64,000 nucleotides of DNA from positions 1,364,001 to 1,428,000 of the forward strand of contig NZ_CP064791.1 in NCBI RefSeq assembly GCF_017094465.1, given 5' to 3'. The stretch's first letter is position 1. Every line of letters starts with the position of its first letter. The stretch is from Halapricum desulfuricans. GTDB lineage: Archaea; Halobacteriota; Halobacteria; Halobacteriales; Haloarculaceae. The notes under the pieces were generated by a model that saw only the letters and a program-made list of their open reading frames with translations, did no database searches and was not told the DNA's origin. Of this stretch, positions 21,457 to 27,926 are shown piece by piece. Both the position numbers and the translations under genes were made by a program.

Positions 21457-21586
21457 GAGTGTACCATAGTGATAGTCGGCATCCGAGAGAAGTTAAATCG
21501 TCGCCAGGCGAGGAGTTCTCCGGCGCTGATCGCTTCCGTAGGAGGTTTAAACGTCCTCGAATAACCACCAACCGCACAACACGGGT

Positions 21587-21670
21587 GCGAGGGTAGCCAA
21601 GCCTGGAAACGGCGGCGGACTCAAGATCCGCTCCCGTAGGGGTCCAAGGGTTCAAATCCCTTCCCTCGCA
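21587..21670 (+). tRNA. tRNA-Leu (anticodon CAA)
   Basis: An 84-base class II tRNA with acceptor pairs GCGAGGG (21587-21593) and CCCTCGC (21663-21669), anticodon CAA at 21622-21624 within CTCAAGA, a long variable arm and T-arm GGTTCAAATCC. The discriminator is A and CCA is not encoded. There is no intron. Copies of its 3' end follow downstream. Confidence 0.95.
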
Positions 21671-21809
21671 TCGCTGTGAGGCCCACATCGGGCCGAGCAA
21701 GATGCACTCGGAAGGGTTTGAACGAGAGAACGTCTGCGTTCGCGTAGTTCAAATCCCTTCCCTCGCATCGAAAGATGCGGAAGACTGGCCGGAGCGGTCT
21801 TCCCTCGCA
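21650..21809 (+). repeat. Direct and inverted copies of the tRNA-Leu 3' end
   Basis: The last 21 bases of the tRNA plus TCG (21650-21673, starting GTTCAAATCCCTTCCCTCGC) recur exactly at 21747-21770, 97 bases on. Between them at 21711-21723 is GAAGGGTTTGAAC, an inverted copy with one base missing, which could pair with the second direct copy. A third, ten-base scrap TTCCCTCGCA is at 21800-21809. The rest of this stretch up to the next gene at 21915 shows nothing else. Confidence 0.8.
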
Positions 21810-25741: not shown

Positions 25742-27073
25742 TCAGGCCACCTCCGAGAGCGCCCCGACGAGTCCATCCGTCGCGTGCTCGTTCACGTCGG
25801 TCACACACAGTTGCAGGTGGTCCCCGTCGAGCGCGTGGACCGCGTACCCCCGGTCGCGGAGGTCGTCCCGAACGGCCGGCGCCGGCCGGTCGGTCCGGGC
25901 GAGGAACTCCCGAAAGTGGTGGCGATCGTGGACCGGCGCGTCGACGCCGTCGATGTCGTCGACCCGCGCTGCGAGTTCCTTCGGGGCTCTGACGGCCTCT
26001 TCGGCTAGCTCGACCAGCCCGTCCGCACCGAGCCAGGCAGCGTGGATCGCCGTCCGGAGCGCGACCCACGCCTGGTTGGTGCAGATATTCGAGGTCGCTC
26101 GCTCCTGTCGGATGTGCTGTTCGCGGGTCTGGAGGGTCAGCGTGTAGGCCCGCCGTCCGCTCCCGTCGGTCCCCGCCCCGACCAGCCGGCCCGGAACCTG
26201 CCGAAGGAACGACTCCCGCGTGGCGAACAGGCCGTGGCTCATCCCGTAGGCGTGCCCCAGTCCGAGCGCGCCCGCGTCGCCGACGACGACGTCCGCGCCG
26301 ACGCTCGCCGGCGCTTCCAGCAACGCCAGCGCGACTGGGTCACTGCCGAGACAGAACAGCGCGTCGTGACCGTCCGCAAGGTCGCCGATCTCGGCCAGCT
26401 GTTCCTCGATAGTTCCCCGGACAGTCGGGTTCTCGGCGTACACCATGACGACGTCGTCGTCGATCGTGGCGGTGAGCGCCTCCAGATCGGCGTTGCCGTC
26501 GTCGCTCGGGTAGGCCTCGACGTCGAGTCCGGCCCCGATCGCGTAATTCTCCAGGACCTCGCGCTGCTCCTCTCGGAGCAGTTCGGGGACGAGGACCCGC
26601 GAGCCGCTGGTCTCCCGGACCCGAGTGGCAAGCGTCGCTGCCTCGCCGAGGGCTGTCGCCCGATCGTACATCGAACTGTTGGCGACGTCCAGTCCCGTGA
26701 GCTCGACGAGCATCGATTGGTATTCGAACAGCGCCTGGAGGAATCCCTGGGCGACCTCCGGCTGGTACTGCGTGTAGGAGGTCAGAAACTCCGAGCGTGC
26801 GGACAACCTCTCGACGACCGCCGGGACGTGGTGGGCGTAGTGTCCACGGCCTAGAAATGACGCCGTCTCGTCGTTGCGCGAGAGTACCTGTTCGATTTCT
26901 CTGGCCGTTCCACGCTCGTCTTGGGAATCGATCCCGAACGCCCCCTCAAACCGGATCGACTCGGGAACGTCGAACAGTTCCGATTCGTCTTCGACGCCGA
27001 TCGTCTCGAGCATCGCGGCCGTCTCCGCGTCCGTGTGGGGGACGTACGGACTCCCGCCCCGTCGCCCGCTCAT
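25742..27073 (-). CDS. gcvPA: Glycine dehydrogenase (decarboxylating) subunit 1
   Basis: The 443-residue partner of GcvPB corresponds to the N-terminal half of the single-chain P-protein. Typical segments are [63 protein letters not shown] and [11 protein letters not shown]. It shares the aminotransferase-like fold but not the PLP lysine. It is the first gene of the two-gene operon and starts at ATG 27073. Beyond it lies only the tRNA-His repeat array. Confidence 0.95.
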
Positions 27074-27206
27074 CGGGTGAACACCGTCCGAAAAGTCATG
27101 TGATGAACGGGGCTAACGACCGCGAGTATAAGATTGTACCGAGAGGGTGTTCGGCCCTACTGCTAGCCATTCCTGCCTTTTCGACTCTTTCGGTCGCCAC
27201 AGAAAA

Positions 27207-27546
27207 GTCCGGGTGCGAGAATCGAACCGGAACCAGACGTGCTCGCTTCGCTGCGCGCGACTGGTAGGGCTCGATTCTCTGAGGACTTCTGCGGCTCGCG
27301 GGTTGCTCGCGGCAAGAAAGTCCGGGTGCGAGAATCGAACCACGGTCGGACGTGCTCGTTGCACTGCGCGCGACCTCCCTGATTAGGTTCTCGACGGACT
27401 GCTGTCGCTCACGAATTGTTCGCGACAAGACAGGTCCGGGTGCGAGAATCGAACCGGAACCAGACGTGCTCGCTCCGCTGCGCGCGACTGGTAGGGTTCG
27501 ATTCTCTGACGACTTCTACGGCTCGCTGTTTGCTCGCCGCAAGAAG
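27207..27546 (-). repeat. Tandem array of three units containing the tRNA-His 3' end
   Basis: GTCCGGGTGCGAGAATCGAA, the complement of the tRNA-His 3' end, occurs at 27207, 27320 and 27433, and again in the real tRNA at 27547. Spacing is 113, 113 and 114 bases. Each unit also has an inverted T-arm copy (for example GGGTTCGATTCTCT at about 27494) and two potential hairpins. Units 1 and 3 are close relatives; unit 2 is more diverged. Upstream from 27074 to 27206 is non-coding, with a faint fourth copy at most. Confidence 0.85.
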
Positions 27547-27619
27547 GTCCGGGTGCGAGAATCGAACCCGCGTCCCAGCCTCCACAAGGCTGGAGGATAA
27601 CCACTACCCCAACCCGGAC
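27547..27619 (-). tRNA. tRNA-His (anticodon GTG)
   Basis: The minus strand folds as a tRNA with anticodon stem CAGCC/GGCTG, loop TTGTGGA and anticodon GTG. The acceptor has eight pairs, GTCCGGGT with ACCCGGAC, so the extra G at position -1 is encoded (27619) and faces C73 (27547), as expected for tRNA-His. CCA is not encoded and there is no intron. Confidence 0.95.
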
Positions 27620-27743
27620 ACGCGTTGGGCACCTCATTGTAGCCGGAGTGCGATTGATATAGGTTACGTTCCCGAGCGGGTACGCTATGCCGTCACGCGA
27701 TCCCGGAGAAACCTCTATACGGTACCAAGACACACATACGAGT

Positions 27744-27878
27744 ATGGTAACCACGACCGAGCGAGACGGAGAAACGTGGTACCAGTGCGAGAAATGCGAG
27801 ATGCTGTTCGACAACCAGTCGGACGCCGAACAGCACGAACAGAACTGCGACGCGGAGGACCCGTCGTACATCCAGTAG
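27744..27878 (+). CDS. Small zinc-finger protein, DUF7128-like
   Basis: A 44-residue protein of the pattern MVTTTERDGETWYQCEKCEMLF..DAEQHEQNC, a single C2H2-like finger (CEKC, then His and Cys). Its end DPSYIQ is typical of a small, widespread haloarchaeal family that I know as DUF7128. Function is unknown; nucleic acid or protein binding is likely. The ATG at 27744 was preferred to one 57 bases upstream because the finger family starts there and a TATA-like CTATAC lies before it. Confidence 0.8.
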   Translation: MVTTTERDGETWYQCEKCEMLFDNQSDAEQHEQNCDAEDPSYIQ

Positions 27879-27926
27879 CGATACGCGAGGCTAGTCGATC
27901 ATCGAAAGCCGAAAAACGACCGGTCG

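Follow-up and report, generated by a model that had tools for sequence, protein, structure and literature searches.

Many haloarchaeal tRNA genes are followed by a family of small tRNA-anchored hairpin units, of which a tRNA-His array is one case

The closest known system, judged by analogy of layout, is that of the Escherichia coli tyrT/tyrV repeats (RttR/rtT RNA, tpr). These are tandem units directly 3' of the tRNA gene; a copy of the tRNA-Tyr 3' end (AATCCTTCCCCCACCACCA) closes each unit, and in the predicted fold an inverted tail copy, GGGGAAGGAT, pairs with ATCCTTCCCC around inner hairpins. The units that we describe here in haloarchaea resemble them in all of these respects. They differ in that the E. 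coli repeats occupy one bacterial tRNA locus, have a 178-bp unit, copy the tail from about nucleotide (nt) 59 with the encoded CCA included and have no common core, whereas the haloarchaeal units are found at 33 tRNA types in most genera of an order, with a common core and with arms adapted to the host tRNA. When positions 26900 to 27900 of the window (the whole 64,000-nucleotide stretch of the Halapricum desulfuricans genome that was analyzed) were scanned with Rfam at E ≤ 1, the tRNA was the sole match and no rtT was found. The haloarchaeal units are thus not a member of the rtT family and are like it in layout only.

Integron cassette arrays and CRISPR arrays grow beside an anchor and have a repeated end. 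The haloarchaeal arrays are comparable by analogy only, in that a repeated end with its left edge at G53|T54 lies beside the tRNA; unlike in those systems, the repeat is a tRNA tail and most units have no cargo. The haloarchaeal units have inverted arms and the G53|T54 edge, by sequence a possible counterpart of the folded recombination site of an integron. Archaeal tyrosine recombinases use att sites in tRNA 3' ends and likewise leave the 3' part of the tRNA duplicated beside the gene (PMC8371274), but the haloarchaeal units have no integrase or gene cargo, carry an inverted arm and stand in tandem at about 113 bp. The transposase-free repeats of Haloquadratum (MITE, PATE, and SMR) are also short, non-coding, palindromic and dispersed, and PATE and SMR have been described as causing no target duplication (PMC3119063); the units described here, in contrast, are tied to tRNA 3' ends and have host-specific tails.

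We found no description of the family in the literature searched, in which subscription journals were poorly covered, and it seems unreported so far. Our data suggest that a structured repeat system, specific to each tRNA and quick to change, makes up the 3' flanks of tRNA genes in haloarchaea, as an order-wide archaeal counterpart of the E. coli tyrT repeats with their single locus. The family offers a tractable route to asking if a mobile element captures tRNA tails or if the tails are retained as trailer RNA; we supply the covariance model and the loci for tests in culturable strains.

The array behind tRNA-His and the anatomy of a unit

The array is anchored at tRNA-His (GTG), which lies on the minus strand at 27546 to 27618 (ARAGORN and Rfam RF00005). 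An earlier note on this DNA had reported that the tRNA 3' end is repeated three times at a spacing of 113 to 114 bases, and we recovered the copies, starting at 27207, 27320, and 27434 (spacing of 113 and 114 bp). The copied sequence, GTTCGATTCTCGCACCCGGAC, is nt 53 to 73 of tRNA-His and closes each of three minus-strand units, numbered here from the tRNA outward: the tRNA-proximal unit 1 (27434 to 27546, 113 bp, with the tail copy at 27434 to 27454), unit 2 (27320 to 27433, 114 bp, tail copy at 27320 to 27340), and the distal unit 3 (27207 to 27319, 113 bp, tail copy at 27207 to 27227).

Each unit is predicted to fold into a hairpin I, formed by its first ∼34 nt, and a hairpin II, formed by the antisense arm, the core, and the tail. 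Hairpin I of unit 1 (CTTCTTGCGGCGAGC..GCGAGCCGTAGAAG) would span 27513 to 27546. Across units, pairing in the first hairpin survives sequence change (CGGC/GCCG and TGTCGC/GCGACA), as the earlier note had observed of what it called the second hairpin. Hairpin II of unit 1 (27443 to 27507) comprises an inverted T-arm copy at 27495 to 27507, the inner core, and the T-loop part of the tail copy, and it was matched by our covariance model R2 at 79.2 bits. The corresponding hairpin of unit 3 (27216 to 27280) scored 76.9 bits, and that of unit 2 (27329 to 27393), a unit with a core of a different type, scored 37.9 bits. An inverted T-arm copy had been claimed for every unit. The antisense of the T-loop, AGAGAATCGA(A/G)CC, is indeed clear in units 1 and 3 (27268 to 27280 in the latter); in unit 2 it is degenerate (about 27381 to 27393). 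Over the 451-nt array region, the predicted fold was 5.4 standard deviations more stable than those of shuffled sequences.

A second anchor in the window is tRNA-Leu (CAA), on the plus strand at 21586 to 21672 (ARAGORN). It is followed on the same strand by a single 97-bp unit (21671 to 21767) with an exact tail copy at 21747 to 21767 and an inverted arm that includes one G.U pair.

Across the family, a unit begins with hairpin I, followed by an antisense copy of the host T-loop (nt 53 to 63), the inner hairpin core, and a direct copy of host nt 53 to 73, and the units mostly measure 97 to 206 bp. In 93 units, the copy starts at nt 53/54 and ends at nt 73, and identity drops sharply just outside both edges. 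Tails matched their host tRNA with an identity of 0.91 to 1.00 per position at nt 57 to 73, compared to 0.26 to 0.48 at variable positions in mismatched pairs. The antisense arm was host-specific at nt 57, 59, 62, and 63, and the sequence beyond the arm was random. At these four positions, 353 of 448 cells were paired versus 230.6 ± 8.1 after shuffling (112 unique units); with one unit per tRNA type (33 types), the mean z was 8.6 and the minimum was 6.6.

The proposal of the earlier note that the hairpins are maintained with covariation was borne out by the alignment of hairpin II from 29 sequences: standard pairs filled 93.5% of the cells versus 81.4% after shuffling, with none of 500 shuffles as high, and double changes, affecting both sides, occurred in 11 of the 18 pairs. 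Slid-alignment controls were paired at 18 to 53%. Double changes were present in all six of the inner pairs of hairpin II, which are independent of the tRNA tail; the sequences in all of these unit statistics are related and hence non-independent.

The apical loops of the hairpin cores are mostly of the form C-GNA-G, for example, GCGAAGC, and this loop pattern was present in 125 of 136 units. Loops of this GCGAAGC type form unusually stable DNA mini-hairpins. We also observed a frequent form of the tail copy, GGTTCACAATCC, which has one extra T-loop base, in units at Arg-TCG, Thr-TGT, Val-TAC, Ile-GAT, and Phe; this form is absent from the tRNA genes themselves.

The sense strand is probably the one that folds. 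In related sequences, the z score of hairpin II was −4.38 for the sense strand and −3.88 for the antisense strand, and that of segment I was −1.91 (the mean across 111 units) versus −1.26. A U-rich start follows the tRNA and each tail copy (T frequency of 0.66 to 0.46 over nt 74 to 78), a pattern that would suit trailer transcription with stepwise termination. G.U and A.C combinations in arm-tail pairs numbered 26 and 17, respectively, among 112 unique combinations, a difference that was not significant (P = 0.22), and RNA-level selection is therefore not established. A ratio of 15:3 in a small set (nt 54 to 61) was not sustained in the larger one, and we do not count it as evidence for the folding strand.

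The strength of these folds, the stronger sense-strand scores in hairpin II and segment I, and the U-rich starts are also what one would find if the units were simply trailer RNA structures (terminators, processing signals, or sponge RNAs) conserved at each tRNA since an ancestor, with copy number changing by slippage only and no movement between tRNAs. There is a precedent in the E. coli 3'ETS-leuZ trailer, which reportedly acts as a small RNA sponge. We nevertheless consider this explanation unlikely, since the nearest core lies more often at a different tRNA than at the same tRNA, the presence of units varies between congeners, and one tail can be common to unrelated bodies within an array (see below). 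In the reading that we favor (below), too, units may be transcribed within the tRNA trailer, where the sense strand would fold, and selection might preserve pairing between the antisense arm and the tail copy, which would mask the spare T-loop and 3' end in the precursor; we put this forward as a proposal, with less certainty than the joining of units to the tRNA.

Units behind other tRNA genes and across genomes

A search of relatives with the tRNA-His array returned matches 3' of many other tRNA genes (Asp, Arg, Ser, Leu, Gln, Val, Lys, Pro, and more), and the units at these genes each bear the tail of the local tRNA. Counting copies within 500 nt downstream and with at most 3 mismatches in 17, we found that 19 of 45 tRNAs in the host genome and 18 of 33 in one congener are followed by their own tail. 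Control pairs of mismatched tails and flanks gave a tail match in 10 of 1,858 cases in the host genome and in 4 of 980 in the congener; the host-genome frequencies exclude chance as the source of the tail copies. In related haloarchaea, units were found 3' of about half of the tRNA genes checked, and the family spans 33 tRNA types, in a set of loci that counts as a random sample only for G000 and for most of G001 and G002 (the three congeners compared below). The tRNA-His array belongs to a family of small, non-coding hairpin units that are anchored at tRNA genes in haloarchaea, and its reading as a feature of tRNA-His, as in the earlier note, was too narrow.

The covariance-model search of haloarchaeal genomes that had been suggested along with that reading gave R2 matches in 102 of 117 genomes of the host's order, representing 42 of 48 genera, and in none of 101 sampled genomes of the phylum outside this order; these counts are lower bounds owing to Infernal filters and candidate limits, and the model E values are rough. 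In four genomes that are complete or nearly so, R2 gave 111 matches, of which 103 (∼93%) had a tRNA on the same strand no more than 700 nt upstream. Most of the inspected matches among the remainder were likewise located at tRNAs. Several adjoin tRNAs missing from the tRNA table, including an intron-containing tRNA-Trp and a Leu tRNA; one lies within the extended array at Lys(CTT), and another is an orphan unit. None of 30 tRNAs in four non-haloarchaeal control genomes had a unit, and two apparent tail copies there look like neighboring full tRNA genes. The core pattern was absent from the viral contigs searched, and units were absent from the phage collection searched.

This distribution bears on whether the units are scars of attachment, that is, remnants of integrative elements with an att site in the tRNA 3' end. 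Archaeal integrases often target tRNA 3' ends (PMC8371274), and the Lys(CTT) array of the host genome spans a 208-amino-acid open reading frame (ORF). Against such an origin, the units are short (about 100 to 160 bp), gene-free, and tandem at about 113 bp, they involve 33 tRNA types, and their antisense arm and conserved core are foreign to att scars. The tail copies are likewise not tied to the ends of integrated elements, the setting to which they would have been confined had the earlier note been wrong in calling simple scars insufficient. We regard this origin as largely refuted and very improbable.

Cores are shared between tRNAs. For 89 of 128 units, the core of closest similarity was at a different tRNA, in the same genome for 11 of these 89, and Leu(TAA) in one genome and Val(TAC) in another are followed by an identical 41-nt core.

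Gain or loss of units and the proposed growth of arrays

The number of units differed between the three congeners. In G000, G001, and G002, respectively, we counted 3, 1, and 0 units at His (the locus for which a comparison between relatives had been proposed), 1, 3, and 1 at Leu(TAA), 1, 4, and 1 at one Met, and 1, 2, and 0 at Ser(GGA). At Lys(CTT), one extra 139-bp unit sits precisely between the tRNA end and a flank that is 96% identical. Whole-unit differences between congeners were also found at Leu(TAA), Lys(TTT), Val(TAC), Thr(TGT), and Ser(TGA), with flanks that are 92 to 98% identical; the direction, gain or loss, is not polarized at most loci. Whole-unit gain and loss between relatives fits the earlier suggestion of a repeat that grows at tRNA genes.

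Within arrays, neighboring units whose bodies are at chance identity (mean of 0.58 for random pairs) had a tail identity of 0.965, and the distal-most tails were more decayed than the others (0.940 versus 0.987; P = 0.003). Unrelated bodies with near-identical tails, together with decayed distal tails, argue against tandem duplication as the sole source of the arrays and for addition beside the tRNA. Plain tandem duplications were seen in some arrays (Val-TAC in G001 and Lys-TTT in L042), and because such identical neighboring units occur, duplication contributes as well. The extra unit at Ser(GGA) is at the distal side and not tRNA-proximal.

The reading that we favor, with a probability of roughly 0.6, is that these small hairpin units are added at the tRNA 3' end, duplicating the tail, and that the arrays lengthen chiefly on the tRNA side and lose units through tail-tail recombination. 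Addition mainly next to the tRNA would push older copies outward, where they would decay, and recombination between tail copies would remove units; short direct-repeat deletions are common in the haloarchaeon Haloquadratum (PMC3119063).

Such deletions would equally serve a neutral process, in which slippage, together with ectopic gene conversion between tRNA flanks that have GGTTCRANTCC in common, enlarges the arrays and neither a selected function nor dedicated mobility is involved. The tail and arm provide about 10 nt of homology at both ends of the core, which allows core exchange, and the identical neighboring units are also in line with this process. The host-specific compensatory arms and the inner-helix covariation, however, need selection or a correcting mechanism, and the units are confined to one order, with none at the 30 control tRNAs outside it. 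These points make a purely neutral origin improbable, even more so than conserved trailer RNA.

A bolder version of the favored reading is that the units are minimal cassettes, gene-free and hairpin-forming, which insert into nearly any haloarchaeal tRNA gene at its T-loop/3' end, adopt the tail and antisense arm of that tRNA, and build arrays that grow on the tRNA-proximal side. They would then constitute a new class of integrating element, an idea that we hold tentatively and think somewhat more apt to be wrong than right.

The Lys(CTT) array (L158; G000:C1:1628000-1631000) extends over 1.9 kb and has six tail copies. It encloses the 208-amino-acid ORF, which has a Tat-like signal, and a 164-bp unit is repeated on both sides of this ORF.

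Related sequences were also observed on plasmids. On Haloarcula halophila plasmid NZ_CP119561.1 (L236:1426-1568), a tRNA-Cys-like gene is split between nt 53 and 54, which is the edge of the tail copies, by an insert of about 68 nt that ends in the hairpin core of the family. The split gene sits in a dense array of at least 17 tRNA genes, next to a gene with a TROVE domain (Ro60-like) and a gene for a type B DNA polymerase. Were the cassette-insertion reading true, it would represent a misplaced insertion. On Natrinema thermotolerans plasmid CP031304.1 (L240, around 690 to 865), a unit lies 3' of a tRNA 3' part that has no ARAGORN tRNA call and is possibly a partial tRNA. Other haloarchaeal plasmid loci carry the inner hairpin core at a distance from tRNAs (L237:783-850, L238:794-845, and L239 around 801), and these tRNA-free repeats have a different common end, CCGAGGGCTTTC.
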